In this document: positions 50-15,727 of the stretch, piece by piece
Layout of the letters: each line of letters starts with the position of its first letter
Numbering within the stretch: position 1 is the stretch's first letter
Origin: a virus
Direction: 5' to 3' (one strand)
Virus record (IMG/VR): IMGVR_UViG_3300029267_000359
Span: 1-21,451 of that record
Length of the DNA stretch: 21,451 nucleotides
Position numbers and translations under genes: made by a program
Notes under the pieces: generated by a model
Seen by the model: only the letters and a program-made list of their open reading frames with translations
Databases searched by the model: none
What the model was told of the DNA's origin: nothing

Positions 50-748
50 ATGTTATCAAAATCAGACAACCCGATCCTATCCGCCGCCGACCTGCCCGCG
101 CCGGCCGCCAGCAAGCAGAAGGCCGCCCGGCAACACGCCGCAATTCGCGACGACTTTCGCAGATCGCGCCGAATGAAATCTATTCGCGACGATCGCAAAC
201 TAATCAGAACGGCGCGGCGTGAACACAAGGCACACCTTCGCCAACTGCTCGACGTGTCGTTCGCCGCGGAGCATCTCGGCCACCTGCCTACACCGCAAGA
301 ATCGTTTCATTGTGTGATGGGTGGCAACTACACGGGATGGTCACTTGTGCCCGCCGTCTTGCAACTAGTCGCCGGCGACCATTTGCTCGAACTCAAGATC
401 GCGACCCTTGGATTCAACCGGCGGATCGCCCGCGACCTTCTGAAACTAATTGACGCCGGCCGCATTGAAAACGGGTCGCTGATTTGCTCGTCTTTCTATC
501 GTTCGCACGATCAAGACGTCTACGCGTGGATCGCCGCCGAACTTAGCGCGCGGGGGTTCGATGTTGCTTGCACCCGATGCCATGCAAAGGTTCTATTGAT
601 GCACACGTCGGCCGATCATTGGCTAGTTGTGGAAGGATCGGCGAACCTGCGTTCTTGTAACAATATCGAGCAATTCGCGCTTTTCAATGATCGCGAAGTC
701 TACCAATTCCACGCCGGATGGATGCAAGAGGTCCTGGCCGCCGCCTAA
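50..748 (+). CDS. Phospholipase D-like (HxK motif) phage protein
   Basis: The 232-residue protein has a basic, probably disordered N-terminus (about residues 20-65) followed by a PLD-fold-like domain. The supporting motif is H178-A-K180 followed by a hydrophobic strand and then GSANLRSCNN (residues 196-205), the arrangement of the H-K-N half-site of PLD-superfamily nucleases and lipases. Only one half-site is visible, so a working enzyme would have to dimerise, as single-motif PLD nucleases do. The usual Asp six residues after the Lys is not evident. The reading frame has a stop at 11-13, so the gene starts inside the window; ATG 50 has no clear Shine-Dalgarno, and ATG 173 is a possible later start. 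Its stop overlaps the next start (TAATG at 746-750), tying it to the terminase operon. PLD-like proteins do occur beside phage packaging genes; substrate (DNA or lipid) is unknown. Confidence 0.68.
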   Translation: MLSKSDNPILSAADLPAPAASKQKAARQHAAIRDDFRRSRRMKSIRDDRKLIRTARREHKAHLRQLLDVSFAAEHLGHLPTPQESFHCVMGGNYTGWSLVPAVLQLVAGDHLLELKIATLGFNRRIARDLLKLIDAGRIENGSLICSSFYRSHDQDVYAWIAAELSARGFDVACTRCHAKVLLMHTSADHWLVVEGSANLRSCNNIEQFALFNDREVYQFHAGWMQEVLAAA

Positions 749-1152
749 TGCCGCCGAAGAAACGAAAGACGAAAACCAAACGCAAGCCGCCGGTGAAACG
801 CAAGGCGACGCCGACGCCCGCACAGCTACACCAGGTCTACAAGTGGATTCTCGAAGGAAACGATACCGAAGACATCGCCGAGGCGATCGCCGAACACTGG
901 CCGGGCCTGGCCGTCGCCGCCGTCCTGCCCGCCGCACGCGACAAGCTGGTCGAGGCCGCGGAGGCCGACCCGGCGATCGTCGCCGGCTGGGCGATCGCGT
1001 CCGCCCGCGAACTATACCGCCGGATGGTCGCGATCGGCGACTATGTCGGCGCGCTGAAGGCCCTTAGAACCGTTGCCGACCTGGCCGCGAAATATGGGGA
1101 TATTCCAACCGAACCGGAAACAGCGGAGGAGGACGCCCGCGAAAAAACCTAG
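748..1152 (+). CDS. Putative terminase small subunit
   Basis: The 134-residue protein opens with a Lys/Arg-rich tail (first about 20 residues) and continues as a predicted all-helical protein. It contains a segment about residues 25-60 that could form a helix-turn-helix (YKWILEGNDTEDIAEAIAEH). Small terminase subunits bind the packaging start site through such a domain and recruit the large subunit. Assignment rests on size, basic and helical character, and its position directly before the large terminase gene, not on a recognisable signature. ATG 748 is chosen over an upstream ATG at 718 because it forms a TAATG overlap with the preceding stop and removes ten residues that only shadow the previous gene. 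Its 3' end overlaps the large terminase gene. Confidence 0.6.
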   Translation: MPPKKRKTKTKRKPPVKRKATPTPAQLHQVYKWILEGNDTEDIAEAIAEHWPGLAVAAVLPAARDKLVEAAEADPAIVAGWAIASARELYRRMVAIGDYVGALKALRTVADLAAKYGDIPTEPETAEEDAREKT

Positions 1153-3247
1153 TCGCCGCGCCGGCACCAAGAGCGAGCGCCGACGCGACGCCGAACGAAA
1201 ACGCAAGAGCCGACAGACAGAGCGGATCGTCTCGATCGTGGTCGACGCCGACGCGATCAAACGCCGCCGCCGGCTGGAACGCAATATATTCCGCTGGTTG
1301 CGATACTACTTTCCCGAAATCTTTACCCAACCCTTTACCGCACAGCAAAAAGAAATGGCCGCCGCGATCCTATCCGCCGCGAAATATGGGGGCGACCAGG
1401 CCATCGCCGCGCCGCGAGGCGAGGGCAAGACGACCATTGTCGAGTGTGTCGTTATCTATTGCGTATTGACCGGCGCCCTGGCCTTCCCCGTGATCTTTTC
1501 CGCGACCGGCCCCGACGCCGAACGTATCTTACGCAATATCAAGGGTCGAATCGACGGAACCGAAAGCGATCGACTCGCCGCCGATTACGCCGAGGTTTGC
1601 GGGCCCGCCGCCGCGCTTGAGGGGTTGCCGAACCGCGCGAACGGCCAGATCGCGACCGGCCGGATCGGCGACCAGGCGTTTGGGCCGACCCGTACCCGAA
1701 TTCGCTGGTCGGGCCGGGAGATCACCTTGCCGACGATCGACGCGCCCGAAAGCCGGGCCCGCGGTGCCCTGATTATGACCCGCGGTCTCGACGCCGCGGT
1801 CCGCGGCCTGCGCGTCGGCCGCCGTCGGCCCGACCTCGCCGTGATCGACGACCCGGAGACCCGCGAGATCGCCGAATCGGACGAGCGCCCGAACAAGCTG
1901 GCCCGCAAGATCGACCAGGACATCGCCGGCCTTGCCGGACCGCGCAAGCGATTGTCGCGCGTCATGCTCACCACGATCATGAATCGCCGATGTTTATCGT
2001 ACCGATTCACCGACCCCAAAGAAAAACCCTCTTGGAAGGGTCGGCGATTCCGCCTTCTAATCAAGCCGCCCGCCCGCGAGGATCTATGGGAAGAGTATAT
2101 CCAACTACGCCAGGACGGCCAGGTCGAGGGCGACGAATTCGGCCGCGCCGCGCACGCGTTCTACCTGGCGCACCGCCGGCAAATGGACCGCGGCGCCCGG
2201 GTCGGCAACCGCAACCGATTCACGCCCGACGTTCTGCCCGACGGGTCGACAATGCAAGTCTCGGCGCTGCAATTCTGCTACGACACAATCGCCGATATGG
2301 GGCGCGACGCCTTCGACGCCGAATACCAAAACGACCCGCCCGAAGAAGCCGGGCCGATCGAGTCGGGGATTACCGCCTACCGAATCCAGCGCCAGCTATC
2401 CGGCCACGATCGACGGATCGTACCGCCCGGCGCCACCGTGTTGACCCAAGGCGTCGACGTCCGCAAACTCGCCTTGCACTGGGTCGTTGCCGCCTGGCAA
2501 CCGGGCGCGACCGGCTTCGTCGTCGATTACGGCGTTACCGAGGTCCGCGGCACAATCCGCGGATCGGACGAGGGCGTCGAACACGCGATTCTTCGCGCGC
2601 TCGAAGAGCGCCGCGACGACCTGATCGAAAACCCATACACCACCCCCGACGGCGAGGTCGTCGAGGTCAAGACGAGCCTGGTCGACGCCGGATGGAAGAC
2701 GCCGGCGATCTATCACTTTTGCAAGGCCGCGGGCAAGCGCTTCCGGCCGGCGATGGGATTCGGGCGGTCCAATGGATGCGTTCAAGCCTCTTTCAACATG
2801 CCGGCGAAGGACAACGAGCGACGCCGGTCGGGTCATAACTGGTTCTTGTCCTATCGCGAGGCCGACCGGGTCTGGTTGGTCTGTTGCAACGCCGACTACT
2901 GGAAGGGCTGGATTCACTCGCGCTGGTTGACCGGCCCGGGCCACCCTGGATCGCTGCAACTGTTCGGCACGCCCGGCGGCGCCGATCGCATGAACGCCGA
3001 CGAGAAGGCCCATTTTAGCTTTGCCAAACACCTAACCGCCGAGGTCGAGGTCGAAGAGGTCGTCAAGGGGATTCTTACCCGCCGATGGAGCGCAAAAAGC
3101 GATACGAACCACTACTTCGACGCGTCCTACCTGGCCGCGGTCGCGGCGAACATGCACGGAATTAAGCTACTCGGCCGCGCGGCGAAGAAACCGAAACAAA
3201 AGATCAAAATGTCAGACCGGATCGCGCAACGCCGCGGCCGTCGATAA
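1094..3247 (+). CDS. terL: Terminase large subunit (lambda GpA-like)
   Basis: This is the ATP-driven DNA packaging motor and headful or cos nuclease. Numbering from ATG 1094 (717 residues), a very basic N-terminal extension (about 1-65) leads into the ATPase domain. Walker A is APRGEGKT at about 106-113 and Walker B is the DLAVIDD segment ending at about 253. The C-terminal nuclease domain shows acidic residues in GVDVRK (D455), SLVDAG (D531) and NHYFDA (D676), the three-acid pattern of RNase H-like terminase nucleases. GVDV and the terminal NHYFD block resemble the GpA family. The start is uncertain: ATG 1094 overlaps the small subunit gene by 59 bases and has no good ribosome site; TTG 1073 and GTG 1238 are in frame. 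The next gene starts 15 bases downstream. Confidence 0.9.
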   Translation: MGIFQPNRKQRRRTPAKKPSRRAGTKSERRRDAERKRKSRQTERIVSIVVDADAIKRRRRLERNIFRWLRYYFPEIFTQPFTAQQKEMAAAILSAAKYGGDQAIAAPRGEGKTTIVECVVIYCVLTGALAFPVIFSATGPDAERILRNIKGRIDGTESDRLAADYAEVCGPAAALEGLPNRANGQIATGRIGDQAFGPTRTRIRWSGREITLPTIDAPESRARGALIMTRGLDAAVRGLRVGRRRPDLAVIDDPETREIAESDERPNKLARKIDQDIAGLAGPRKRLSRVMLTTIMNRRCLSYRFTDPKEKPSWKGRRFRLLIKPPAREDLWEEYIQLRQDGQVEGDEFGRAAHAFYLAHRRQMDRGARVGNRNRFTPDVLPDGSTMQVSALQFCYDTIADMGRDAFDAEYQNDPPEEAGPIESGITAYRIQRQLSGHDRRIVPPGATVLTQGVDVRKLALHWVVAAWQPGATGFVVDYGVTEVRGTIRGSDEGVEHAILRALEERRDDLIENPYTTPDGEVVEVKTSLVDAGWKTPAIYHFCKAAGKRFRPAMGFGRSNGCVQASFNMPAKDNERRRSGHNWFLSYREADRVWLVCCNADYWKGWIHSRWLTGPGHPGSLQLFGTPGGADRMNADEKAHFSFAKHLTAEVEVEEVVKGILTRRWSAKSDTNHYFDASYLAAVAANMHGIKLLGRAAKKPKQKIKMSDRIAQRRGRR

Positions 3248-3262
3248 CAGGGAGTCGAGACC

Positions 3263-3781
3263 ATGCCAGAATCGCACGTAACGGTAATTAAGTATCACTC
3301 GCAACTGCGGATCAAGGAGTCGATCGAGGGCGTCGGGTCCGCCGAAAATGCCGAGGTCGATCACAAGGACTGGAACCTCGACCAAGAGGTTCTCAATTCC
3401 TCGAATACCGATCTGATCGACAGTTTCCGCCGCGGGGGTGGTGAATACACGATCGGGACCGGCGATACAACGATCGACCTAACCGCGTTGTCGGGAACGC
3501 AAAGCGACATCGACGCGACCGGCGACAAGGTCCAATATCTGCAACTAATCACCGACGACGAGAACGTCGCCGCCATAACGATCAAGCCGGGATCGTCAAA
3601 CCCTTATAACCTGTTTGGGTCGTCGAACGAAATCGACCTAGGCGCCGGGGTCGAGGTCCTGGCGAAATTCGCCGAGACCCTCGACGACGTCGCCGCCGGC
3701 GCGAAGACGATCGAGATCGCCGGGACCGCCGGCGACAAGATCAAAATACAGATCGTTACCGGACCCGCCGCGGGGACGTAG
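3263..3781 (+). CDS. Beta-rich presumed virion protein
   Basis: The 172-residue acidic protein has no catalytic motif. Its second half (about residues 95-172) alternates hydrophobic strands with Gly/Asp turns (ITIKPGSSNPYN, EIDLGAGVEVL, KTIEIAGTAGDKIKIQIV). This resembles beta-sandwich modules of phage virion decoration or tail-associated proteins, in which a residual-signal strand, an x-PG-x-SNP-like loop and a final GxAxxxxxxV strand recur. The start at ATG 3263 is supported by GGGAG eight bases upstream. It lies between the large terminase and the accessory cassette, so it may be either a head-module gene or the first gene of the insertion. I do not recognise a named family. Confidence 0.5.
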   Translation: MPESHVTVIKYHSQLRIKESIEGVGSAENAEVDHKDWNLDQEVLNSSNTDLIDSFRRGGGEYTIGTGDTTIDLTALSGTQSDIDATGDKVQYLQLITDDENVAAITIKPGSSNPYNLFGSSNEIDLGAGVEVLAKFAETLDDVAAGAKTIEIAGTAGDKIKIQIVTGPAAGT

Positions 3782-3792
3782 ACTGTTAGACC

Positions 3793-3897
3793 ATGAAACG
3801 CAAACGACGAGTCAAAGGGCACCGCCAGGCCGGGCGGAAGACCAACCGGTCGCGAAAGGCGTTACGAAAACGACGATTGCAGCGCGCCGCAAAATGA
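3793..3897 (+). CDS. 34-residue highly basic peptide
   Basis: The small reading frame starts at ATG 3793 and its TGA (3895-3897) overlaps the ATG of the next glycosyltransferase gene in an ATGA junction. It encodes 34 residues of which 18 are Lys or Arg, plus one His; there is no acidic residue, no Cys and no hydrophobic stretch. The composition suggests nucleic-acid or polyanion binding. The perfect start-stop coupling to the downstream gene, which has no ribosome site of its own, suggests that it is translated and acts at least as a leader that delivers ribosomes to the cassette. A chance reading frame in GC-rich DNA is the alternative. Confidence 0.5.
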   Translation: MKRKRRVKGHRQAGRKTNRSRKALRKRRLQRAAK

Positions 3898-4670
3898 AAC
3901 ACTCGATCTTGATTACCCACCGGAACCGACACGCGCACTTGCATCTTTGCTTGTGGTCGATCGAGCGGTCGGCCGCCTGTTGCCGCGTCGATCCCGCCGA
4001 GTGGGAGGTCGTCGTCGCCGACAACGGGTCGCGGCTTCCCCCGTTCGACGACTGTCGCGACAATGTCCGCCTGATCGTCGACCGGTCCGACATGCCGATC
4101 TTCTGCAAGCCGCGCCTTTGGAACGTCGCGATCGCCGCCGCCCGCGGCCGGGTCTTGACCTTCTTGGACGCCGACGCGATCGTCGGCCGCCGATGGATCG
4201 AGGGGATCGCCGCCTTCGACCACGATCCCGCCTTGATTCGGCTTTGCTACCGCGTCCGCTACTTGCCGAAAGACTACGCCGCCCGAATCCAACACGCCCG
4301 CCACCGCGGCCGCTTCGTCGACGGCCTGTTCGACCGCTACGCCGACTTCAATATGGCGTGGGAAGCCTACGGCCGCGCGACGACGAACCGCTTTGACCCG
4401 ACCCAGATCGACCGCGTGTTCGGCAACTCGCAATTCAGTGTTCGCCGCCGCGACCTGGCCGACCTGCGCCCCGACGAGGGATACGTCGGCCGCGGCTTCG
4501 AGGATATTGATTTTATCCGCCAGTTCGAGCGCCGCTACAGCGACCGTTACCGCGGTTTTCTCGACACGGACCCGGCCGCGGGCATGTTTCACCTTCAACA
4601 CGAAAAGGGCAAGGATTGGGCGGACCCCGCGAGTGTGCGGGCCAATCTGGAAAGGTTTCGCGCGACATGA
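3894..4670 (+). CDS. GT2-type glycosyltransferase with GalNAc-transferase-like C-terminal motif
   Basis: The 258-residue protein has the GT-A fold layout of family 2 glycosyltransferases: N-terminal strand HSILITHRNR, VVVADNGS (about 39-46), and the metal-binding DxD motif as LDADA (91-95). GRGFEDIDF (199-207) matches the G-x-G-x-ED-x-D-x acceptor-site motif seen in the galactosyl/GalNAc-transferase C-terminal domain. FHLQHEK (232-238) supplies the late His expected for metal coordination. No transmembrane segment is present, so it should be cytoplasmic. It would transfer a sugar from a nucleotide-sugar to a protein, lipid or glycan; donor and acceptor are not visible. It starts by ATGA overlap with the basic peptide and ends by ATGA overlap with the next gene. 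Confidence 0.82.
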   Translation: MKHSILITHRNRHAHLHLCLWSIERSAACCRVDPAEWEVVVADNGSRLPPFDDCRDNVRLIVDRSDMPIFCKPRLWNVAIAAARGRVLTFLDADAIVGRRWIEGIAAFDHDPALIRLCYRVRYLPKDYAARIQHARHRGRFVDGLFDRYADFNMAWEAYGRATTNRFDPTQIDRVFGNSQFSVRRRDLADLRPDEGYVGRGFEDIDFIRQFERRYSDRYRGFLDTDPAAGMFHLQHEKGKDWADPASVRANLERFRAT

Positions 4671-5020
4671 GCTACCTGGCTTGTTCGCACACCGCGCCGG
4701 TTACGCAAACCGCGTTCTGCGTCGCCACCATCACCGCCGGCGACGTGGTCGCAAGCGGTACGTTCGACGCTGGCGCGAGTGCCGCACATGGCGAAATCAG
4801 CGAGGAAATGCGCAGGGCGCTTTATTGCCTTCGGCCTTGCCCCGACGCGCAGGCCCTGGCCGAAATCGGCGAGGCACTAGCCAAGGTTTGCAATACCAGG
4901 CCGCGGCGACCGCCCCGCGCCGCCGTCTATACGCCGTATAAATTCCGCCGTTCCGCGCCCCGCAAGTGCGCCGCCGCAAAACGGATCGGCCGAAAGAAGA
5001 AACGGAGTAAGTTAGAATGA
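4667..5020 (+). CDS. Unknown Cys-containing protein with basic tail
   Basis: This 117-residue protein matches no family I recognise. The first about 40 residues are Ala/Thr/Val-rich, with C6 and C18. A central helix-like segment carries C54 and C58 (CLRPC) and C75. The last 40 residues are strongly basic, with C101 and a closing RKKKRSK block. The start at ATG 4667 is chosen because it forms an ATGA overlap with the upstream glycosyltransferase stop and has AAAGG upstream; the frame itself is open further up. Its stop overlaps the start of the sulfotransferase-like gene. Candidate roles are an accessory subunit, a nucleic-acid binder, or a substrate of the neighbouring enzymes; none is shown by sequence. 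Confidence 0.6.
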   Translation: MSYLACSHTAPVTQTAFCVATITAGDVVASGTFDAGASAAHGEISEEMRRALYCLRPCPDAQALAEIGEALAKVCNTRPRRPPRAAVYTPYKFRRSAPRKCAAAKRIGRKKKRSKLE

Positions 5021-5595
5021 GAATCTTTGTTACCGGAACCGGGCGATGCGGATCGGTTACGTTTTCCCGCGCTTGCCGCCATATCACGAACTACACCGTC
5101 GGCCACGAAACCCACACGAACAAGCGCGACGCCGGCCGGATGGTCGGCGATATTCTCAATCTCGACTACCCCGACGATCATATCGAAGTATCGCCGCAAC
5201 TCGCGATCCAAATCCCGCTATTGCGCGACCGCTACCCCCACGCGAAATGGGTTCACCTGATCCGCACCGATCGCGACGCCTGCGCCCGGTCGTTGCTGCA
5301 CCGGTCCGACATGCGGGCCTTCGCCCGCTACAACTTCCTAAGCGAGGGCGACGACGGCCAGGCCGTCGCCTATGCGATCTACGATACGATGCGGACCGTC
5401 GTCGACGCCTGCCTTGATCCCGACCGACTCACGATCGCGACCGCCCCGGGCCTGGTGATCCCGGCGATCGCGCTTCACCTGGAAACGATCAAGCGGGAAT
5501 GGCGCGGCTTTTGGGATTGGGCCGGCGCCGAGGGCGACTTCGACGCGAGCCTCGCCGAGTGGGATCGCCGCTACAACAAAGGAATCTACCAATGA
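5017..5595 (+). CDS. Sulfotransferase-like P-loop protein
   Basis: The 192-residue protein begins with a strand and phosphate-binding loop, VTGTGRCGSVTFSR (about 5-18), of the form used by sulfotransferases to bind the 5' phosphosulfate of PAPS. A second block, HLIRTDRDACARSL (80-93), fits the 3'-phosphate motif, with R83 and S92 in the expected spacing. Together these indicate a PAPS-dependent sulfotransferase fold, which moves sulfate onto a sugar or other hydroxyl. The protein is shorter than typical sulfotransferases (about 250-300 residues), so a lost function or different donor is possible. GGAG lies upstream of ATG 5017. It overlaps both neighbours by ATGA. No PAPS synthesis genes are present, so the host would supply the donor. 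Confidence 0.68.
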   Translation: MRIFVTGTGRCGSVTFSRACRHITNYTVGHETHTNKRDAGRMVGDILNLDYPDDHIEVSPQLAIQIPLLRDRYPHAKWVHLIRTDRDACARSLLHRSDMRAFARYNFLSEGDDGQAVAYAIYDTMRTVVDACLDPDRLTIATAPGLVIPAIALHLETIKREWRGFWDWAGAEGDFDASLAEWDRRYNKGIYQ

Positions 5596-6257
5596 TTCGA
5601 CCGTCGCCGGAAATCGACACCCGCGAGCAGTTCGCCCGACTCTGCAATCTCCGCGGCCTGAAAAACTTCGCCGTCGAGATCGGCGTCGAGCGCGCCGGGT
5701 TCGCCGTCCGATTCCTGCAAAAGTGGGCGGGTCATAAGCTGTGGTGTATCGACCCCTGGCGCGACGACCTCGAAGGATACCACGAGCCCGATCTAACCCG
5801 ATTCGATCGCGAGCCCGACTTCTTGATGACTTGCGCCGCGCTCGCGCGGTTCGACCGCCGGGTTACGATCAAGCGCACCACGTCCGAGGCCGCCGCGCCG
5901 CGGTATCCCGACGGCCTGTTCGATTTTATCTATCACGACGCAAACCACGCGTACCCGTTTATAAGCCGCGACCTGGCGGCCTGGTGGGACAAACTGCAAC
6001 CCGCCGGCATTTATGCCGGCCACGACTTCGACGAGGCGAACCACCCCGGCGTGGCCCGCGCGGTCCGCGAATTCGCCGCCGAGAAGGGGCTCGACGTCCT
6101 GTTGACCCATGAACCGCACTATCGGTCGTGGTATATCTACAAGACCCCGCCGCTACGCCTGTTCGAGTCGGCCGAAGAAACCCTCCGACAAATTGCCTTT
6201 TTAGAGCGACAAGCGAGTCGAGACGATGAGACTATCGATACTGATCCCGGCGCTTGA
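5592..6257 (+). CDS. Class I SAM-dependent methyltransferase (Methyltransf_24-like)
   Basis: The 221-residue protein has the class I methyltransferase sequence of motifs. Motif I is VEIGVERAGF (28-37), and an acidic residue ends strand 2 (CIDPW, D54). Motif IV-like DFIYHDANHAY is at 111-121, and a following strand carries AGHDF (142-146). The HDANHAY and GHD pattern is typical of the small Methyltransf_24/CmcI-like methyltransferases that modify sugars and secondary metabolites. No membrane segment is visible. ATG 5592 overlaps the preceding TGA and has AAAGGA upstream; a longer reading frame exists but would lie wholly over the previous gene. The 3' end overlaps the next gene by 32 bases. 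Confidence 0.82.
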   Translation: MIRPSPEIDTREQFARLCNLRGLKNFAVEIGVERAGFAVRFLQKWAGHKLWCIDPWRDDLEGYHEPDLTRFDREPDFLMTCAALARFDRRVTIKRTTSEAAAPRYPDGLFDFIYHDANHAYPFISRDLAAWWDKLQPAGIYAGHDFDEANHPGVARAVREFAAEKGLDVLLTHEPHYRSWYIYKTPPLRLFESAEETLRQIAFLERQASRDDETIDTDPGA

Positions 6258-6996
6258 GTCGCGCCGGTTCGCCGCCTTCCCCTTGATCGCCGATTTACGC
6301 GCACAAGCCCGCGCATTTTCCGACGTCGAGGTTCTCGTCGAAGAAGACAACGGCGAAAAACCGTCGGGCGCGAAGCGCAACGCCCTTATTCGCCGGTCGA
6401 CCGGCGACTATTTCTGCCAGGTTGACGACGACGACTTCGTCGCGCCGGACTATGTCGCCACGATCCGCGCCGCTTGCGACGGCGACGTCGACCTGGTCTC
6501 GTTCGACCTGTTGCGGATCGACGTCGAGCGCGGGAACTGCCGCACCCACTCGTTCGCCGTCGCGCACGCCGATAAGCAGACCCGATCCCGCGGACACTGG
6601 AAAATGACCGCGAACCACCTTTGCGCGTGGCGCCGCGACATCGGGACGAAGGTCGCGTTCCCCGACAATCTCGGCTACGCCGACGACTGTTTCTGGTACA
6701 GGCCCTTGATCGCGTCGGGCCTGGTCCGCGCCGAAACCCACCTAGACCGCATATTGTATTTCTATCTGTACGGCCACGCGGCGACCCGCAACCAATCCGC
6801 CGACTCGATCCGCCGCACGCGCGAATGGCAGGGCGGGGGGATCGAGTGTTTCCGACGGGGGTCCGAAATCTACATTGCTAACAAGCCGATCGAGCGGTCG
6901 CACGCCGAGGCCGCCGTCGAGTGCCGCAACCGGTTCGGCCAGGTCGTTACCCTCGACCGGTCGACCCTCGACCGATTCCTCGTTGTAAAGGTATAG
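6226..6996 (+). CDS. GT2 glycosyltransferase
   Basis: The 256-residue protein starts MRLSILIPAL and shows the diagnostic GT2 stretch: SGAKRNALIRRSTGDY at about 47-62, then the metal-binding QVDDDDFV (65-72). These are the nucleotide-binding strand, the KRN sugar-nucleotide contact and the DxD motif of GT-A enzymes. A later YADDCFWYRP block (near residue 150) supplies the usual ED-like catalytic acid region. It has no transmembrane segment. The first 32 bases overlap the upstream methyltransferase. This is the second glycosyltransferase of the cassette and is not an obvious duplicate of the first, so a different linkage or acceptor is likely. Confidence 0.85.
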   Translation: MRLSILIPALESRRFAAFPLIADLRAQARAFSDVEVLVEEDNGEKPSGAKRNALIRRSTGDYFCQVDDDDFVAPDYVATIRAACDGDVDLVSFDLLRIDVERGNCRTHSFAVAHADKQTRSRGHWKMTANHLCAWRRDIGTKVAFPDNLGYADDCFWYRPLIASGLVRAETHLDRILYFYLYGHAATRNQSADSIRRTREWQGGGIECFRRGSEIYIANKPIERSHAEAAVECRNRFGQVVTLDRSTLDRFLVVKV

Positions 6997-6999
6997 CCG

Positions 7000-7542
7000 A
7001 TGATAGAAGCCTGGTCGCACAGGGACTACCGCGGATTTACTCTCATGGCCCCCGACGAACGCGACGCCGTCGTCGCCGAATGGCGACGCGTCGGCGGCGC
7101 CGCGCTGGAGATCGGCACCTTCCAAGGCGTCGCCGCCGGCGTGTTCGCCGACGCAATGCCCGACAATCGCCTTGTGTGCCTCGACACCTTCGAGGCGAAT
7201 CACGATGCGATTGCGACCTGGCTTGCGAACCAGCGCCCGAACGCGACGCTGATCGTCGGCGACGCCGACACGCTCGAACGCTTGATGCCGCCGCGTCAAT
7301 TCCGCCTGATCCTCGTCGACGGGGGCCACGATTACGACGCTTGCCTGTGCGACGTCGACGTCGCCCTGCGCCACGCGCTCGACCGACCGGGGTCGATCCT
7401 GGTCCACGATTACACCTGCCAGTGTTTCGCCGGGATTCGCCGCGCCTGCCTCGAATTGTTGGGCGTCCCGACGACTATCGTCAACACACTGGCGATCTAC
7501 CGTTTACCCGCGATCGCTCCCGACGAAAAGGAAACGACATGA
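7000..7542 (+). CDS. Class I SAM-dependent methyltransferase, second copy type
   Basis: The 180-residue protein carries ALEIGTFQGV (35-44) as SAM-binding motif I, the strand-2 acid in CLDTF (D62), LILVDGGHDY (103-112) and ILVHDY (133-138). The DGGHDY plus HDY pair places it in the same small Methyltransf_24-like group as the methyltransferase at 5592, but the two differ in length and in most residues. It starts three bases after the GT2 stop with AAAGG upstream and ends in an ATGA overlap with the radical SAM gene. Likely an O- or N-methyltransferase acting on a sugar; the acceptor is not visible. Confidence 0.84.
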   Translation: MIEAWSHRDYRGFTLMAPDERDAVVAEWRRVGGAALEIGTFQGVAAGVFADAMPDNRLVCLDTFEANHDAIATWLANQRPNATLIVGDADTLERLMPPRQFRLILVDGGHDYDACLCDVDVALRHALDRPGSILVHDYTCQCFAGIRRACLELLGVPTTIVNTLAIYRLPAIAPDEKETT

Positions 7543-8420
7543 TTCCGCCGCGCGAACAATGGTGTATCCAAATCGAGGTTACGAACGCCTGCCCGCGGCG
7601 CTGCGCGAATTGTACGCGACTCCTGGCGCACGCCCGCGAGCCCTTCTTTATGTCGGTCGACCAGTTCGCCGAGTCGGTCGAGGCCGTCCGGCGATTCCCG
7701 ACGCAATCGACGCCCGACCGAAACGGCCGCCGCAAGTGTATCGGGATCATGGGCGGCGAACCGCTTTTACACCCGGAATTCCCGCGCCTGGTCGACCTGG
7801 TCGTCGACGCGATTCCGATCGAGAACCGCGGCCTTTGGACCGGGGTCGCCGACTGGCAAGCCCACCGGTTTGCCGGCGACGTCCGCCGGCTGTTGGGCGA
7901 CGAGCCGTCGGCGTCGACGAAACCGACCCCGGGCCGCGGCTATCTGAATCACAACCCGCACACCGCGCGGGTCGAACACCAGCCGGTTCTAGTGGCGATC
8001 GCCGACGTCGTCGCCGACCGCGACGACCGCGACGCCCTGATCGCCGACTGTTGGTTGCAACGCGACTGGGCGAGCGCGATCACGCCAAAGGGGTTTTTCT
8101 GTTGCGAGGTTATGGCCGCCTTCGACGAGATATTCGAGGGCGGGGGCGGGATGACCGTCGACGACGGCTGCTGGCGATTCGACGTCGAGGATTACTACTT
8201 CTCGCAGATTGCGAAATGGTGCCCGCGCTGCGGGGTCTGCCTGCCGTTGCCCGGGCGCCGCGACTCCGACAATCTCGACGACGTGTCGCGATCCAATCTG
8301 CAAGCGCTGCAACGCCTGGGGAGCCCGCGGATTGCCGCCGGCGACTTCTGCCTGATCGAGACGGCCGCCGGCCCGCGGCCCGCCGACTGGCGCCCGGGCC
8401 AGTATATCAAGGGGAAATAA
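7539..8420 (+). CDS. Radical SAM protein with extra C-terminal cysteines
   Basis: The 293-residue protein has the canonical radical SAM CX3CX2C motif as C18-PRR-C22-AN-C25, which binds the 4Fe-4S cluster that cleaves S-adenosylmethionine. MGGEP (71-75) is the GGE SAM-binding motif. The C-terminal half carries C171, C188, C189, C211, C228, C231, C234 and C271; the KWCPRCGVC block and the FFCCE block resemble a SPASM-like auxiliary cluster domain. ATG 7539 overlaps the previous stop and has AAGGA upstream; the open frame extends further up but only as a shadow. Reaction is unknown: radical SAM enzymes in glycan clusters can deoxygenate, epimerise or methylate sugars, while SPASM enzymes often modify peptides. 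Confidence 0.85.
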   Translation: MIPPREQWCIQIEVTNACPRRCANCTRLLAHAREPFFMSVDQFAESVEAVRRFPTQSTPDRNGRRKCIGIMGGEPLLHPEFPRLVDLVVDAIPIENRGLWTGVADWQAHRFAGDVRRLLGDEPSASTKPTPGRGYLNHNPHTARVEHQPVLVAIADVVADRDDRDALIADCWLQRDWASAITPKGFFCCEVMAAFDEIFEGGGGMTVDDGCWRFDVEDYYFSQIAKWCPRCGVCLPLPGRRDSDNLDDVSRSNLQALQRLGSPRIAAGDFCLIETAAGPRPADWRPGQYIKGK

Positions 8421-9142
8421 TGAAAGCGCTAACCGTTTGCGTACAGTACGACGACCTTCTCGCGTTGACGTTGCCGAAAAACCTGCGCCGCCTCGATCGC
8501 GTCGTCGTCGTTACCTCGCCGGCCGACCGGGCGACGGTCGACCTGGTCGAGAACATGCCGGGCCCGGTCTACTGCCACCAGACCGACGCCTTCTACCGCC
8601 ACGGCGCCGAATTCAACAAGGGCGCCGCGATCGAAGAGGCGCTCGATCGGTTGGGCCGCGACGGCTGGATCATGCTACTCGACGCCGACACGGTCCTGCC
8701 CGACCGGCCCGACTTCCGCGGGATCGAGCCGGGAAAATTCTACTGCCCCCGCCGCCACTGGTGCCTTGACGCCGCGGCGTGGAATGGGTCGTTCGACTGG
8801 TCCGCGTTTCGCGTCCCGATTGAAAAGGACATGGGGGGTTACTGTTGTTTCTTTCACGCCGACGATCCGGTCCTGGCGACGCGCCCCTGGTATCCGACCA
8901 ACTGGCGACACGCCGGCGGCGCCGATACGATCTTCAACCACAAATGGCCGAAGGATCGCCGGCGACGCCCCGACTGGCATGTCTTGCACTTGGGGCCGAC
9001 CTATGAGAACTGGTACGGCCGCACGTCGCCGCGGCTCGACGGCTCGATGCCAGCCGGCCACGAAACCCGCGCCGGCAAAATCCAACAAATGCACCGCGAC
9101 CGCGCGAGCGGTTACGGGTTCTCGCGCGAAAAGGTCAGGTAG
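8420..9142 (+). CDS. GT-A-like glycosyltransferase
   Basis: The 240-residue protein begins with strand ALTVCVQYDD, followed by VVVVTSPAD (28-36), a TDAFY block (55-59), FNKGAAIEEAL (65-75) and a DxD motif in MLLDADTVLP (85-94). This order (nucleotide-binding strand, N-K-G acceptor loop, DxD) fits a small GT-A glycosyltransferase related to GT2. A late HVLHLGP motif could supply the metal-binding His. It starts in a TAATG overlap with AGGGG five bases before the ATG. It is the third transferase-like gene in the cassette and differs clearly from the other two. Confidence 0.72.
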   Translation: MKALTVCVQYDDLLALTLPKNLRRLDRVVVVTSPADRATVDLVENMPGPVYCHQTDAFYRHGAEFNKGAAIEEALDRLGRDGWIMLLDADTVLPDRPDFRGIEPGKFYCPRRHWCLDAAAWNGSFDWSAFRVPIEKDMGGYCCFFHADDPVLATRPWYPTNWRHAGGADTIFNHKWPKDRRRRPDWHVLHLGPTYENWYGRTSPRLDGSMPAGHETRAGKIQQMHRDRASGYGFSREKVR

Positions 9143-9369
9143 TGTCTTGGAGGGAACGCGTCGCAATGTGTCGAGACGACGACGACCGGGGCGGTCTGAT
9201 CTGCCGGCGCTGCGGGTGCCGCGACTTCCGGGTCGAGAAGACCGACCGACGGCCCGACGGCTCGATCCGCCGCCTCCGCAAGTGCCGGCATTGCGGCTAC
9301 CCGCTTCGGACCGTCGAGCGGCCCGACCGCGCCCCGCCGCCGCCTGATCTGCCGGCAGACCCCGACTAA
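9142..9369 (+). CDS. NrdR-like zinc ribbon mini-protein
   Basis: The 75-residue protein has two CxxC knuckles, C21-RR-C24 and C48-RH-C51. The spacing and intervening text (DFRVEKTDRRPDGSIRRLRKC, then PLRTVERPD) parallel the N-terminal zinc ribbon of NrdR, which reads TxVxxSR, IRRRRxC and RFTTYE. The NrdR ATP-cone is absent, and the C-terminus is a short Pro/Asp-rich tail. GTG 9142 overlaps the previous stop (TAGTG); ATG 9166, with GGAGGG eleven bases upstream, is an equally good start giving 67 residues. It is probably a small DNA-binding or protein-binding regulator, and is the last gene before the terminator. Confidence 0.6.
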   Translation: MSWRERVAMCRDDDDRGGLICRRCGCRDFRVEKTDRRPDGSIRRLRKCRHCGYPLRTVERPDRAPPPPDLPADPD

Positions 9370-9454: not shown

Positions 9455-9508
9455 TCCGATAGAACCAGACCCCGAAAGAGCGGCCCGGCCAGGCCGTGTC
9501 TTTTGACG

Positions 9509-9553
9509 AGCCCCTTCGATTCTCGCGAGAAGGATCGAAGGGGCTTTTCTTTT
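9509..9553 (+). terminator. Rho-independent terminator
   Basis: AGCCCCTTCGAT (9509-9520) and ATCGAAGGGGCT (9534-9545) form a perfect 12-bp stem around a 13-base loop, followed by TTTT C TTTT. The T-tract lies on the + strand side, so it ends transcripts coming from the accessory cassette. The loop itself contains the palindrome TCTCGCGAGA. The reverse strand has no comparable T-tract. Confidence 0.88.
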
Positions 9554-9576: not shown

Positions 9577-9777
9577 ATGCCGCAAAGCGACCTGCAAGAC
9601 GAGATCGAGCAAGCGGCCAAAGAGCCCCGCCAGGCGAGCGACGACGGGGGGAGCATGTCGGCGCACCCGATCGCCGACCAGATCGCCGCCGACGGCTACA
9701 TCACCGGCGCCGGCGTGGTCAAGGCGAAGAAGCGCGGTTTACTCACGATGAAATTCAAGCGCCCGGGGTGCCAATGA
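9577..9777 (+). CDS. Small head-tail joining protein at the lambda gpW position
   Basis: The 66-residue protein sits directly before the portal gene, where lambda encodes gpW, the small joining protein that binds the portal vertex. The sequence has a short N-terminal helix (DLQDEIEQAAKEP), a DGGS turn, a second helix (HPIADQIAADGY) and a basic end (AKKRGLLTMKFKRPG). This layout recurs in small proteins encoded between terminase and portal genes of other phages. The similarity to gpW itself is positional rather than residue by residue. ATG 9577 is preferred over an in-frame start at 9496 that would read through the terminator hairpin. Its stop overlaps the portal start by ATGA. Confidence 0.6.
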   Translation: MPQSDLQDEIEQAAKEPRQASDDGGSMSAHPIADQIAADGYITGAGVVKAKKRGLLTMKFKRPGCQ

Positions 9778-11243
9778 TGACCGCCGCCGGAATCCCCCGC
9801 CGCCGACTGCGCATTCTGGGGCCCGACGGGAACCCCTTGCCCCGATCGCCGCGCAACCGGATCGGCGCGAGCTACGACAACGCCGCGACGACGACCGACA
9901 ATACCCGCCACTGGGCGCACGCCGACAACCTATCGGCGCGCGCGGCGAATTCCCTCGCCGTCCGCAAGAAGCTACGCGAGCGGGCCCGTTATGAGATCGC
10001 TAACAATAGCTACGCCCGCGGAATCACCTTGACGCTGGCCGGCGACACGATCGGCACCGGTCCCCGGTTGCAACTCGGATTCGACGAGGGGGAAACGCGC
10101 ATAAACGCCGCGATCGAATCCGCCTGGCGATCCTGGTCGCGGGGTATCAATCTCGCCGAAAAGTGCCGCGTCCTGCGCCTGGCGAAATGCGGCGACGGCG
10201 AGGCGTTCGCCCTGATCGGCACCAACCCGCGGGCCCGGTCGCGAATCAAACTCGATCTTGCCACAATCGAGTGCGATCGCGTTACTGAACCTTATTGGGA
10301 TTTTCTGCCGGAATCGGCCCGCCGCAATGATGGGATCGATTACGACGAATACGGGAACCCGACGACTTACCACGTTCTGAAAACCCACCCGGGCGACACG
10401 GGTCTCTTGCTCCTGGCCGAACAAGACCAGTACAACGCCGACGCGATCGTTCACCTGTTCCGATCCGACCGGCCCGGGCAACAGCGGGGGGTGCCCGAGG
10501 TTACGCCCGCCCTGGGGCTGTTCGCCGATCTGCGCCGATTCACCGAGGCCACGATCGCCGCCGCCGAGACCGCCGCCGACTTCGCCGGGGTGATGCACAG
10601 CGACACACCGCCGATTGACCCCGACGACTCCGACGTCGAAGACGCGGTCGAGGTCGGCGACGCGTTCGAGCTAGAAAAGGCAATGGGCTTGACCTTGCCG
10701 CGGGGGTGGAAGTTCGAGCAGTTCAAGGCGCAACACCCGGCGACGACCTTCGATATGTTCGTCGACGCAATGCTCCGCGAATTGGCCCGTTGCGTCAATA
10801 TGCCGTTTGGAATCGCCGCCGGCGATTCGAGCGATTACAACTACGCGTCGGGCCGGCTCGACGATCGAATCTACCTACTCGCGATCCGCCTCGAACGCGA
10901 TTACTTCGAGATCGAGTTACTCGACCGGTTACTGGCCGCCTGGTGGCAAGAGGCGATTCTCGTCCGCGACCTGATCCCGCCGTCGCTGCGCCGCCTGGCC
11001 GTCGAAGAGATTCCGCACGAATGGCGATGGGATCGACGGCCGCACGCCGACCCGGTCAAGGAAGAAATGGCGCGGAAGCTCCGCCTCGAAATCGCCGACG
11101 GCACACTCGCCGAATTCGCCGCCGAAGACGGCGTCGACCCCGACGGCCGAATCCAACAGCGCGGCCGCGAGATCAAGCAGCTACGCGAAGCCGGGATCGC
11201 CGTCGGCCCGCAACCGAAACCCCAACCCCCCGGCGCCCGATAG
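9774..11243 (+). CDS. Portal protein, lambda gpB family
   Basis: The 489-residue protein forms the dodecameric DNA channel at one capsid vertex. Recognisable family text is ARYEIANNSYARG (71-83) followed by GDTIGTGPRLQL (90-101), the conserved block of lambda-family portals in which residues read R-x-N-x-Y-A then V/I-G-T-G. The usual FxxDRPGQxRGVPxxTPAL segment is also present (LFRSDRPGQQRGVPEVTP, beginning near residue 230). Length is close to the family norm. ATG 9774 gives an ATGA overlap with the upstream gene; ATG 9777 directly after it is equally possible. The C-terminus is Pro-rich. Confidence 0.92.
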   Translation: MMTAAGIPRRRLRILGPDGNPLPRSPRNRIGASYDNAATTTDNTRHWAHADNLSARAANSLAVRKKLRERARYEIANNSYARGITLTLAGDTIGTGPRLQLGFDEGETRINAAIESAWRSWSRGINLAEKCRVLRLAKCGDGEAFALIGTNPRARSRIKLDLATIECDRVTEPYWDFLPESARRNDGIDYDEYGNPTTYHVLKTHPGDTGLLLLAEQDQYNADAIVHLFRSDRPGQQRGVPEVTPALGLFADLRRFTEATIAAAETAADFAGVMHSDTPPIDPDDSDVEDAVEVGDAFELEKAMGLTLPRGWKFEQFKAQHPATTFDMFVDAMLRELARCVNMPFGIAAGDSSDYNYASGRLDDRIYLLAIRLERDYFEIELLDRLLAAWWQEAILVRDLIPPSLRRLAVEEIPHEWRWDRRPHADPVKEEMARKLRLEIADGTLAEFAAEDGVDPDGRIQQRGREIKQLREAGIAVGPQPKPQPPGAR

Positions 11244-13807: not shown

Positions 13808-14191
13808 ATGGCCCGAACCCGCAACCTTGCGAGGCGTGGGGCCGAATGGCTTCACAGAAAGCAACGCGACCACGCGTCGCAAATTGTCATCTATTGCCGC
13901 GGCGAGGATCGTTGCCAATGCGAGGCCCTGATCGGGAAAACGGAATTCGAGGCGATCGACGAAGAGGGGATCGCCACGATCACCGAAAGCCGCGACTTTC
14001 TGATCCGCGCCGACGAATTGACCCTATCGACCGGCGCGATCGAGCCCCGCCGCGGCGACACGATCCACGAAAGGCACACCAAGACGACGGTCGTTTACGA
14101 AATCAACGCGCCGAAGGGGCAACGATGCTTTGCCCGCGACCTGTTCCGCGACCGATTCCGAATTCACACGAAAGAAATCGACTCTTACTGA
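13808..14191 (+). CDS. Probable head closure / head-tail connector protein
   Basis: The 127-residue protein has a basic N-terminus and a beta-rich C-terminal part. The text RRGDTIHE followed by VYEINAP and RIHTKEI resembles stopper-type connector proteins, in which a GD-turn precedes a YEV/YEI strand. These close the portal after packaging and join the tail. Position between the decoration protein and tail terminator candidates supports the role. Two Cys (CQC near residue 36-38) are unusual but unexplained. The following gene starts four bases after this stop. Confidence 0.55.
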   Translation: MARTRNLARRGAEWLHRKQRDHASQIVIYCRGEDRCQCEALIGKTEFEAIDEEGIATITESRDFLIRADELTLSTGAIEPRRGDTIHERHTKTTVVYEINAPKGQRCFARDLFRDRFRIHTKEIDSY

Positions 14192-14195
14192 TCCA

Positions 14196-14678
14196 ATGGC
14201 AACCGACCCCACGATCGCGATTCTCGCCGACGCCGTCGCCGACGCCCTGCGCGCCGCGACCTTGTCGCAAGACTTGACGACGTCGAATTGCCGCCGACGC
14301 TGGTTTCCATTCTGGAAATCGCTCGAAGACATTAAGGCGTTGCAAGTGCTTGTTGTCCCGAACGTGTTCGCGGAAACCGAAGACGACGACGACCGGGGCG
14401 ACGGCGACGAGACCTTTACGATCTTCGTCGGAGTGCAAAAGAAGCTAACGGAGGCCGCGACCGACGGGAACGTCGAGAACTCCGAGGTCGACCCGCTTGT
14501 CTATCTGTGCGAGGAAATCCGCGACCTTTTCTTCCGCAAGCGATTGTCCAATCTGGGGATCACGCCGACGGTCGACGCCGCGATCCTCGCCTCGCCCTAT
14601 ACCGTGTCGCCCGAACACATGGCCGAATCGCGCACGTTTACCGGGATCGTTACCCTCACACTACACCGGGAGGGATGA
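14196..14678 (+). CDS. Probable tail terminator / tail completion protein
   Basis: The 160-residue protein starts with an N-terminal helix (ILADAVADAL), then a beta core with KALQVLVVPN, FTIFVGVQKKL, a helix (LVYLCEEIRDLF) and a closing FTGIVTLTLHRE strand. The GVQKK strand and the SPEHMAESRTFTGIVTL ending are typical of phage neck proteins that cap the tail tube before head joining. ATG 14196 is chosen over an upstream in-frame start that overlaps the previous gene. No enzymatic motif is present. Confidence 0.55.
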   Translation: MATDPTIAILADAVADALRAATLSQDLTTSNCRRRWFPFWKSLEDIKALQVLVVPNVFAETEDDDDRGDGDETFTIFVGVQKKLTEAATDGNVENSEVDPLVYLCEEIRDLFFRKRLSNLGITPTVDAAILASPYTVSPEHMAESRTFTGIVTLTLHREG

Positions 14679-14681
14679 CCG

Positions 14682-15179
14682 ATGCCGCGACGACGCGCAA
14701 AATCTGGGGGCGAAACGGTCGGGGGCCGCTTCTTCAAGGGCGGTCAGTTCGTCACGCAAGAGGCGCTCGATCGCGAGGCCGGAATGTGTGGAATGGGGTT
14801 CGGCGCCTGGTTCGACATCGGAAAGATTCTGCGCCGCAAGCGCCGCGCGACGATCCGCACGATTCAGTGGTTCGCCGGCGCCGTCCGCAAGGCCGCGGTC
14901 CGATCGCTCAAGCGCCGCAAAGGCCCGTCGCCCAAAGGATCGCCGCCGCACAGCAAGACCCGCCGCCTGCCAAAGGCGATCCGCTACCACGTCGACCGCG
15001 TCGCCGAGACGGCGATCGTCGGCCCGACGTTCGAGGGCGTCGGCCTCGCCGGCGCCGCCCACGAATTCGGCGACACGTTCCGCGGCGATCGCTTCCCGCC
15101 GCGGCCTTATATGACCCCCGCTTTGGAAGAAACCCTCCCCCGGATTCCGCGACTGTGGACCGGGTCGATCCGCGAATAG
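14682..15179 (+). CDS. HK97 gp10-like tail/neck protein
   Basis: The 165-residue basic protein has the C-terminal block AHEFGDTFRGDRFPPRPYMTPALEE, which is characteristic of HK97 gp10-like or virion morphogenesis proteins (EFG, then PxRPFMxPAL). The N-terminal half is Arg/Lys-rich with an RRKRRATIRTIQ segment. It probably takes part in tail completion or head-tail joining. It follows the previous stop by three bases and is twelve bases before the tail tube gene. Confidence 0.65.
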   Translation: MPRRRAKSGGETVGGRFFKGGQFVTQEALDREAGMCGMGFGAWFDIGKILRRKRRATIRTIQWFAGAVRKAAVRSLKRRKGPSPKGSPPHSKTRRLPKAIRYHVDRVAETAIVGPTFEGVGLAGAAHEFGDTFRGDRFPPRPYMTPALEETLPRIPRLWTGSIRE

Positions 15180-15191
15180 AAAGGAAAAACC

Positions 15192-15659
15192 ATGTCGAAA
15201 GAACAAGCCCCCTTCGGCTTCGAGTGCAAAATGTACTATTTGACGACCGGCACCCGCGCCGCCTGGTCCGACCCTATGTCCAATCTTGGCGAGATCGACG
15301 AGGTCCGCGACGCCAAGTTGAACTGTTCGCACGTCGAGGGCGACGACACCGATCGCTCGACCGCCTACGTCTTGACCGACGTCGGCCTGGTCGAGGCGTC
15401 GGTCGACTTCCAACTCCGCAACGACACCAGCCAGACGCCCTATCAGACGATCCGGGCCGCCTTTACCGGCCGCTCGACGATCGCAATCGCTGTTCTCGAT
15501 GGCGCCTACGACGAGGCCGCGAGCGAAGGAATCTGGGCCGACTGGGTCGTTACCAAATTCGAGCGGCCGGAAGGTCTGCGCGAAAAAACGCATATCGACG
15601 TCACGATCAAGCCGGCGCGGACGAGTGTCGCCCCCGAGTGGGTCGTCGTTACCACATAG
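15192..15659 (+). CDS. Major tail tube protein
   Basis: The 155-residue protein is consistent in length and layout with siphovirus tail tube subunits. It has an N-terminal YYLTTGTRAAW segment, a central VEASVDFQLRNDT strand pair and a terminal VTKFERPEGLREKTHIDVTIKPAR stretch. The last stretch, with EGLREK leading into a VTIKPA strand, is common in tube proteins of TP901/HK97-related phages. Subunits stack as hexamers along the tape measure to make the tail. AAAGGA upstream supports ATG 15192. Position immediately before the tail assembly chaperone is the usual one. Confidence 0.72.
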   Translation: MSKEQAPFGFECKMYYLTTGTRAAWSDPMSNLGEIDEVRDAKLNCSHVEGDDTDRSTAYVLTDVGLVEASVDFQLRNDTSQTPYQTIRAAFTGRSTIAIAVLDGAYDEAASEGIWADWVVTKFERPEGLREKTHIDVTIKPARTSVAPEWVVVTT

Positions 15660-15687
15660 CCGACGCCGAAACCCGACCACCAGGCAC

Positions 15688-15705: not shown

Positions 15706-15727
15706 TTGCCGCATTATGCGAGGCCCC

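Follow-up and report, generated by a model that had tools for sequence, protein, structure and literature searches.

Gene content of the terminase-portal interval

The window analyzed here, a 21-kb fragment (21,451 nt) of the genome of an uncultured phage, harbors a mostly ATGA-coupled block of seven enzyme genes (3894-9142) between the genes for the large terminase subunit and the portal protein (Table 1). These encode three GT-A glycosyltransferases (GT1, GT2, GT3), one sulfotransferase-like protein (ST), two Methyltransf_24 enzymes (MT1, MT2) and one radical SAM enzyme (rSAM). All open reading frames of the region 3793-9369 lie on the plus strand, with coordinates as given in the preliminary description. 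Overlaps of 4 nt (ATGA) were found at 3894, 4667, 5017, 5592 and 7539, of 1 nt at 8420 and 9142, and of 32 nt at 6226; a 3-nt gap lies at 7000. The codon bias of the seven enzyme genes (0.36-0.48 bits/codon) was about the same as that of the head genes. None of the seven enzymes has a membrane helix (no 19-residue stretch with a mean hydropathy above 1.6).

Table 1. Features of the cassette and its flanks. Percentages are identities to the homolog in the related locus named.
Feature	Position	Strand	Evidence
Large terminase subunit, GpA/lambda type, upstream flank	1145..3247	+	PF20454 7e-21; PHROG 38/15; start approximate, frame already open from 1073
172-aa acidic protein, possible virion accessory protein, candidate glycan acceptor	3263..3781	+	homolog in L341
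b1, 34-aa very basic ORF, doubtful gene	3793..3897	+	codon signal weak, 0.15 bits/codon
GT1, glycosyltransferase family 2 type	3894..4670	+	PF00535 4e-9; L255 46% at same locus
b2, 117-aa basic ORF, ATGA-coupled both sides	4667..5020	+	no family; codon signal -0.03 bits/codon
ST, sulfotransferase-like	5017..5595	+	PF13469 6e-4, under cut-off; L255 42%; L257 36%
MT1, Methyltransf_24 methyltransferase	5592..6257	+	PF13578 9e-14; L255 48%
GT2, glycosyltransferase	6226..6996	+	PF00535 2e-7; PHROG 14775 4e-26; L255 52%; L257 39%
MT2, Methyltransf_24 methyltransferase	7000..7542	+	PF13578 1e-14; L257 30%
rSAM, twitch-type radical SAM enzyme	7539..8420	+	PF04055 2e-5; 23-sequence alignment; structure model; L254 68%
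GT3, GT-A fold glycosyltransferase	8420..9142	+	structure model; invariant D88, D90; rSAM fusions
Zinc ribbon, core head-module gene outside cassette	9142..9369	+	terminase-portal gap of 78/131 relatives; L254 68%
Intrinsic terminator, 16-bp stem then T-rich tail	9508..9546	+	same place in L254
Small pre-portal protein	9577..9777	+	kept before portal in relatives
Portal protein, lambda family, downstream flank	9777..11243	+	PF05136 7.5e-58

The preliminary description had listed ten genes packed as one transcription unit between the large terminase and a gpW/portal pair. The seven enzymes, their tight overlaps and the location were retained. The zinc ribbon was removed from the cassette as a core head-module gene of the relatives, and b1 and b2, small basic reading frames with weak coding signal and no conservation, are doubtful as genes; b2 was matched neither in L255 and L257 nor in the other loci retrieved. 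The name gpW was dropped for the pre-portal gene, which matched no gpW profile and whose start, judged from homologs, is ATG 9577 rather than GTG 9496. Since an intrinsic terminator, kept in the related phage L254 with one compensatory change (A-U to G-C), separates the cassette from the portal operon, the two probably form separate transcription units, as judged from the sequence. No promoter for the cassette was recognized in the window sequence. Upstream of the cassette, the 172-aa acidic protein matched nothing in family-profile searches; the sole homolog found (L341, 6915-7415; 35%) is encoded directly 3' of a presumed major tail protein gene.

Enzyme families and predicted chemistry

The enzyme identities first read from motifs were borne out for GT1, GT2, MT1 and MT2 by profile matches over the Pfam cut-offs and for GT3 by its predicted model; those of rSAM and ST draw support from relatives. 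In Pfam, GT3 reached E-values of only 0.01-0.04. Its model (pLDDT 93) matched a chondroitin polymerase domain with Z 16.5, by which prediction GT3 is assigned the GT-A fold, and the aspartates of its DxD motif were invariant in 18 sequences. ST scored 20.6 bits against the PF13469 cut-off of 27, i.e., below it in the window itself; its homolog in L255 exceeded the PF17784 cut-off (24.6 vs 22.8 bits). Among 294 Planctomycetota genomes, a single weak partial match to ST was seen. The cassette contains no genes for sugar-nucleotide synthesis, so the donors must come from the host.

MT1 and MT2 scored 52.6 and 55.2 bits, respectively, against the PF13578 cut-off of 26.3 bits. The best solved relative of their profile was 6g7d (5e-14), which we take to be MeT1 of mycobacterial methylmannose polysaccharide. 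The pathway to this polysaccharide has been described (PMC9883506). With this profile match and their clustering with glycosyltransferases, both enzymes resemble Methyltransf_24 sugar O-methyltransferases, sugars being their putative substrate. MT1 also matched PHROG 2675, which is labelled DNA methyltransferase, and DNA-glycosylating virus glycosyltransferases exist (Pyle 2024, as cited in PMC12619734). Both points would fit a cassette, next to the terminase, whose enzymes hypermodify the bases of phage DNA by adding tailored sugars ahead of packaging. However, the closest solved relatives of the methyltransferase profile are annotated as small-molecule O-methyltransferase type, and no base-hydroxylating or dNTP-modifying gene was recognized in the window. 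A Tet/JBP gene was found in none of 32 records (fragments, among them the window and the rSAM contigs), a search in which the control genomes gave no match either. Modification of DNA is considered improbable.

The rSAM match to PF04055 is under the Pfam cut-off and, as for ST, is backed by relatives. The CX3CX2C motif, which provides the ligands of the SAM-binding 4Fe-4S cluster, was present with C18, C22 and C25 invariant in 23 aligned sequences, as were four further cysteines (C171, C189, C228 and C231). SpeY and BtrN are twitch radical SAM dehydrogenases that oxidize sugar or aminocyclitol alcohols of antibiotics. In a twitch domain, one cysteine precedes and one follows a beta-hairpin, and two follow a helix (PMC6231123). 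In the rSAM model (pLDDT 89), C171 and C189 flank the strands 178-182 and 185-187, and helix 216-230 has C228 at its end and C231 just behind it. Thus, in predicted model and alignment, the cysteine layout matches the twitch anatomy. The best structural match was SpeY (Z 16.1 over 240 residues), followed by BtrN (Z 11.7), with all others at or below 9.5. At the sequence level, similarity was weak (E 0.018 to 7wzv for the sequence alone; E 0.003 to BtrN for the alignment profile), and rSAM differs from SpeY and BtrN in its identity of about 15%, in being phage-encoded and in being paired or fused with a glycosyltransferase. The model and the shared cysteines suggest that rSAM probably oxidizes a sugar hydroxyl to a ketone by SpeY/BtrN-like chemistry.

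A radical SAM enzyme beside small reading frames, weakly resembling rSAM peptide maturases in profile searches, also recalls a RiPP-like system in which rSAM, the methyltransferases and the glycosyltransferases modify the b1 or b2 peptide. SpeY as the closest fold is, however, well ahead of the peptide maturases, and enzymes of the cassette are present in L255 and L257, yet b2 is absent there. This very improbable reading was rejected, as no conserved precursor peptide lies next to rSAM (b2 was tested; b1 is too short).

Conservation at the site and recurrence of the rSAM-glycosyltransferase module

Relatives of the phage were found mostly in Planctomycetota genomes. In 131 relatives, the terminase-portal gap had a median length of 0.68 kb and contained none of the seven enzymes. 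In two phages that share the head module of the window, L254 and L255, however, the cassette occupies this site. The order in L254 is rSAM-GT3-zinc ribbon-terminator-portal (rSAM 68%, GT3 56%, zinc ribbon 68%, portal 60% identity), and that in L255 is GT1-ST-MT1-GT2-sulfotransferase-GT3-portal, with cassette identities of 42-53%. The additional L255 sulfotransferase is a 264-aa Sulfotransfer_3 protein (9.5e-14). L257 shares the gene order in part (ST, GT2 and MT2). Relative to L254, dN was 0.26 for rSAM and 0.38 for GT3, as compared to 0.33 for the portal and 0.30 for the capsid protein (dS about 1). Since rSAM and GT3 diverged like portal and capsid, the cassette appears to be long resident and maintained with the head genes. 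A recent horizontal insertion is unsupported, and the earlier wording that the cassette had been inserted into the head operon is doubtful. Related phages without the cassette keep the same head genes, so this group can dispense with it.

The terminase-portal gap serves this phage group as a cargo site: in relatives it also carries AbiE, restriction-modification-like and other genes. Unrelated accessory genes (morons) could have piled up in such a hotspot by chance, with no joint function. Against this stand a gene order shared by L255 and, in part, by L257, the rSAM-GT3 fusions, and GT-MT-rSAM groups in unrelated phages, making a chance assembly highly unlikely.

The rSAM family was found at 29 further viral loci. 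GT3 or GTx, a 232-aa glycosyltransferase of other phages, lay no more than 3.5 kb away on the same strand at 22 of these, and a Methyltransf_24 gene at nine. Glycosyltransferase neighbors were counted with separate profiles for each family; GTx and GT3 cannot be treated as one family (hhalign probability 1%). The rSAM loci adjoin terminase, portal or coat genes in different phage types: the gene lies between terminase and portal in L228, after the terminase in L225 and after the coat gene in L231, L233 and L246, and L218 and L234/L248 (coat of PHROG 283) are likewise located by structural genes. rSAM and GT3 are fused in one protein in L235/L236 and L245/L247. L225 also encodes a fusion of CMP-sugar synthetase and NeuB, and L240 encodes a sugar epimerase. 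In a Planctomycetota genome, rSAM neighbors an ABC-2/Wzt polysaccharide exporter and glycosyltransferases. The viral rSAM relatives were reached solely by alignment-based scans; scanning viral contigs with rSAM and GT2 as single proteins gave no matches, and tblastn found no relatives of GT1, GT3 or rSAM in isolated-phage records. A phage module of rSAM, glycosyltransferase and methyltransferase was not described in the openly licensed papers searched.

The neighborhood search proposed in the preliminary description thus found genes that are not merely scattered, with the cassette in L254 and L255 and rSAM-glycosyltransferase groups in unrelated phages. The co-occurrence in phages, the bacterial polysaccharide neighbors, the rSAM-GT3 fusions and the likeness of the rSAM model support its central proposal, and glycan tailoring is very likely the function of the cassette.

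Acceptor and proposed function

Since none of the seven enzymes has a membrane helix, the acceptor is expected in the cytoplasm, where virions also assemble. The glycosyltransferase genes sit among structural genes, as expected of virion-glycosylating phage systems. A virion protein is therefore somewhat favored as the acceptor. Alternatively, a host surface polysaccharide or soluble precursor could be modified, masking receptors and excluding other phages. The polysaccharide export and glycosyltransferase genes beside bacterial rSAM relatives and the NeuB-type sugar synthesis of L225 would suit this, and surface remodelling by glycosyltransferases was proposed for marine phages, including pelagimyophages (PMC7029224). 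However, the block lacks a flippase, a polymerase and a membrane-bound glycosyltransferase, and its genes, set amid late head genes, have diverged at the pace of these, so that a host-surface target is rather unlikely. Such modification of the host surface is known for serotype-converting phages. Serotype conversion by gtrABC likewise involves phage-encoded glycosylation, but the gtr cassette has a membrane flippase and a membrane glycosyltransferase; this comparison was rejected, as no membrane protein is present among the seven enzymes.

Phage-encoded glycosylation is of an already known kind, and the enzyme combination described here is a variant of it. Mycobacteriophage virions carry glycan on capsid and tail subunits, made by phage-encoded glycosyltransferases (Freeman 2023, via PMC12619734 and PMC11256854); GT2 of the window shares about 31% identity with actinophage glycosyltransferases. 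Compared with that system, the cassette combines three glycosyltransferases with predicted methylation, probable sulfation and predicted radical chemistry, within the packaging/head module. Cyanophages and pelagimyophages also bear multiple glycosyltransferases in GT/LPS gene clusters, proposed to remodel surfaces; these clusters lie largely in the host-recognition/tail-fibre region, and the excerpted text describes neither an rSAM-GT module nor the terminase-portal site (PMC7029224).

From the observed gene set and order, the same-site conservation in two head modules, the recurrence, the fusions and the predicted folds, we infer reactions, an order of steps, an acceptor, a timing and an effect. 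The seven soluble enzymes would be co-translated at a late stage of infection, while heads assemble. Sugars would be transferred from nucleotide donors by GT1, GT2 and GT3 and O-methylated at their hydroxyls by MT1 and MT2; rSAM, working directly with GT3, would probably convert a sugar hydroxyl to a ketone, and ST would probably add sulfate. The acidic 172-aa protein, the capsid and a cement protein are candidate acceptors. On balance, we lean towards a co-translated line for assembling and tailoring a short glycan, most likely on a virion protein. More tentatively, the cassette may represent a widespread, previously undescribed decoration system, in which a SpeY-like rSAM, partnered with a glycosyltransferase or fused to it, yields a keto sugar; this sugar, methylated and sulfated as well, would be attached to the particle as the head assembles.

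The usual picture of a phage particle is one of unadorned protein. If the proposal holds true, chemically elaborate virion sugars would be common in environmental phages. It would also offer testable enzymes, namely a putative phage radical SAM dehydrogenase in fusion with a glycosyltransferase and a putative phage sulfotransferase, and with them a route to ask what part such sugars may play, be it in adsorption, in escaping recognition or in excluding competitors.

Gene layout and cargo of the terminase-portal gap

The window, an IMG/VR virus record of 21,451 bases, is probably a fragment of a virus genome and carries further head and tail genes on the plus strand (fused protease-capsid protein, cement protein, tape-measure protein). 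Between terminase and portal lie the 172-aa protein, a 34-aa basic ORF, seven enzyme genes with a 117-aa basic ORF, a zinc ribbon gene, a terminator and a pre-portal gene (Table). As described preliminarily, the enzyme genes are packed by overlaps. The joins are ATGA or 1-nt except for one 32-nt overlap and one 3-nt gap. Codon bias of the seven enzymes (0.36-0.48 bits/codon) was about that of the head genes; that of both basic ORFs and the zinc ribbon was unlike it. The zinc ribbon is nevertheless taken as a real gene because it is conserved.

Features of the window and of loci in other viral contigs or genomes
Feature	Record	Coordinates	Strand	Remark
Possible PLD-nuclease-like protein	window	50-748		directly upstream of small terminase; PHROG 20533, weakly endonuclease PHROG 16945; homologue (27%) adjoins terminase in L202
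Large terminase	window	1145-3247	+	lambda type
Acidic protein, 172 aa	window	3263-3781	+	between terminase and portal
Basic ORF, 34 aa	window	3793-3897
Enzyme genes GT1, ST, MT1, GT2, MT2, rSAM, GT3	window	3894-9142	+	cassette
Basic ORF, 117 aa	window	4667-5020
Intrinsic terminator	window	9508-9546		strong, 16-bp; between zinc ribbon and pre-portal gene
Portal	window	9777-11243	+	lambda family
Long open frames	window	13846-14277, 14507-16222		overlap plausible tail genes at 13808, 14130, 14682, 15192 in another frame; codon signal of the first poor; could mislead an automatic gene caller
Terminator	L254	~1880-1925		one A-U to G-C compensatory change
Gap cargo	L158	7869-9413		AbiEi/AbiEii
Gap cargo	L402	4510-9129		type II methyltransferase operon
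Gap cargo	L349	4341-9446		1,700-aa Avs-like protein
Homologue of 172-aa protein	L341	6915-7415		between presumed major tail protein and tail assembly chaperone
rSAM-TPR fusion	L224	8831-12016		Planctomycetota genome; flanked by TPR proteins, GT41-like by eye
GT-Methyltransf_24-GT fusion	L197	17399-19999		record of L082; at least 866 aa; downstream of tail genes
Large glycan-like cluster	L256	1-12618		172-kb viral contig; polysaccharide deacetylase-like, epimerase-like, sulfotransferase-like (by eye) and GT3 genes

Relatives were gathered by portal- and terminase-based scans of viral contigs, plus 30 from genomes, mostly Planctomycetota MAGs. In the 131 relatives with both genes, the gap had a median length of 681 bases and was below 2,555 in 90%; in the window it spans about 6.5 kb. 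BLAST-detectable homologues of the cassette enzymes occurred in the gap of none of the 131, and 78 carried there a zinc ribbon homologous to that of the window. By this recurrence, the zinc ribbon, counted preliminarily among the cassette genes, is a head-module gene. Other cargo did occur in the gap (Table, and others); the gap is a cargo site of this phage group, and possibly a phage-borne defence hotspot within the packaging module. Cargo-bearing gaps were also noted in L164, L085, L118, L375 and L110. The cargo seen across the group includes a reverse-strand operon with methyltransferase and ATPase genes, HTH plus ImmA/capP-like pairs and a DNA cytosine methyltransferase-like gene.

In lambda, the corresponding region is a single late operon. 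In the window, the terminator interrupts the equivalent stretch ahead of the portal; it is retained at the equivalent place in the related phage L254.

The cassette in other phages

A scan with the GT3 glycosyltransferase family yielded two phages, L254 and L255, which share the head module with the window and carry the cassette at the equivalent position. The L254 contig starts inside the rSAM gene and continues with GT3, zinc ribbon, terminator, pre-portal gene, portal, capsid and cement, with identities to the window of 68% (rSAM), 56% (GT3), 68% (zinc ribbon), 60% (portal), 62% (capsid) and 78% (cement). L255, to which L259 is nearly identical, starts inside GT1 (46%), followed by ST (42%), MT1 (48%), GT2 (52%), a 264-aa sulfotransferase (PF13469, 9.5e-14) in place of MT2 and rSAM, GT3 (53%), the pre-portal gene, portal (42%), capsid (41%) and cement (55%). 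On the 104-kb contig L257, ST, MT, rSAM, GT2 and GT3 are consecutive, with one further gene. The search for the same neighbourhood, proposed in the preliminary description, located related sets at the equivalent site in two phages and a partial row in a third.

The dN values against L254 (dS about 1) were 0.26 (rSAM), 0.38 (GT3), 0.33 (portal) and 0.30 (capsid). They show purifying selection on the cassette and divergence together with the head genes. Its earlier description as inserted in the head operon should therefore not be taken to mean a recent insertion.

Predicted chemistry and distribution of the radical SAM enzyme

In structure comparison, the AlphaFold2 model of rSAM (pLDDT 89) scored highest against the twitch radical SAM dehydrogenase SpeY (Z 16.1 across 240 residues; Foldseek 6e-8), followed by BtrN (11.7), the rest scoring at most 9.5. 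SpeY acts in the synthesis of spectinomycin, where it oxidises a hydroxyl group of a sugar. BtrN carries out the two-electron oxidation of an aminocyclitol alcohol, its auxiliary cluster being held by four cysteines (PMC9012708). Twitch domains have a cysteine on either side of a beta-hairpin and two at a helix end (PMC6231123). Besides C18, C22 and C25, rSAM has C171, C189, C228 and C231, the last four also invariant in 23 sequences; in the model, C171/C189 flank a beta-hairpin and C228/C231 lie at a helix end, as expected for a twitch domain. Because of these closest folds, their chemistry and the twitch cysteines, oxidation of a sugar alcohol is the best guess for rSAM.

GT3 was modelled (pLDDT 93) as a GT-A enzyme, with chondroitin polymerase as its closest match (Z 16.5). 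ST matched weakly alone, and its L255 homologue exceeded a sulfotransferase cut-off. MT1 and MT2 are Methyltransf_24 enzymes, whose profile best matched the solved structure 6g7d (5e-14), which we take to be the mannoside O-methyltransferase MeT1. The MeT1 pathway is treated in PMC9883506.

A search with the rSAM alignment recovered the family in 29 viral loci. Of these, 22 had a glycosyltransferase of either of two families and nine a Methyltransf_24 enzyme encoded on the strand of rSAM and no more than 3.5 kb away. The usual arrangement was GT(232 aa)-MT(175 aa)-rSAM or GT-rSAM, the genes overlapping at their ends. In differing kinds of phages, these modules adjoin terminase, portal or coat genes: between terminase and portal-capsid in L228 (GT-MT-rSAM), after a terminase in L225, after a coat gene in L231, L233 and L246, and with PHROG 283 coat proteins in L234 and L248. 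L235/L236 and L245/L247 encode fusions of rSAM with a GT3 homologue (27-30%) and another C-terminal domain, which in L235 is of the galactosyltransferase type. L225 also encodes a CMP-sugar synthetase fused to NeuB, and inspection of its sequence points to a DegT-type aminotransferase and an acyltransferase-like gene; L240 encodes an NAD-dependent sugar epimerase. In one Planctomycetota genome, rSAM adjoins an ABC-2 permease, a Wzt-type ATPase and two glycosyltransferases; in a second, it is fused to TPR repeats within a glycan-like gene group. L224 could represent a bacterial protein-glycosylation system employing the same radical enzyme. Fusions of other kinds were observed in L197, a phage with a 50% identical portal and no cassette, and in L198/L199, where an MT-GT fusion adjoins the capsid gene.

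Candidate acceptors of the predicted glycan

Phage glycosyltransferases and virion glycans are already known. Mycobacteriophages, with glycans on capsid and tail subunits according to Freeman 2023 as cited in PMC12619734, are a precedent. The open literature searched yielded no description of an rSAM-GT-MT-sulfotransferase module, and rSAM, GT1 and GT3 had no relatives among some 50,000 records of isolated phages.

Modification of the host surface or of DNA is possible. None of the seven enzymes has a membrane helix, the cassette contains neither flippase nor polymerase, and its genes sit in the late, particle-building region in the window and in other phages. Together with the evolution alongside head genes, this favours an acceptor that is cytoplasmic and made late, i.e., a virion protein. 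The 172-aa protein is a candidate, since the sole homologue found (L341) directly follows the presumed major tail protein gene; judged from this position, the window gene may encode a relocated virion accessory protein.
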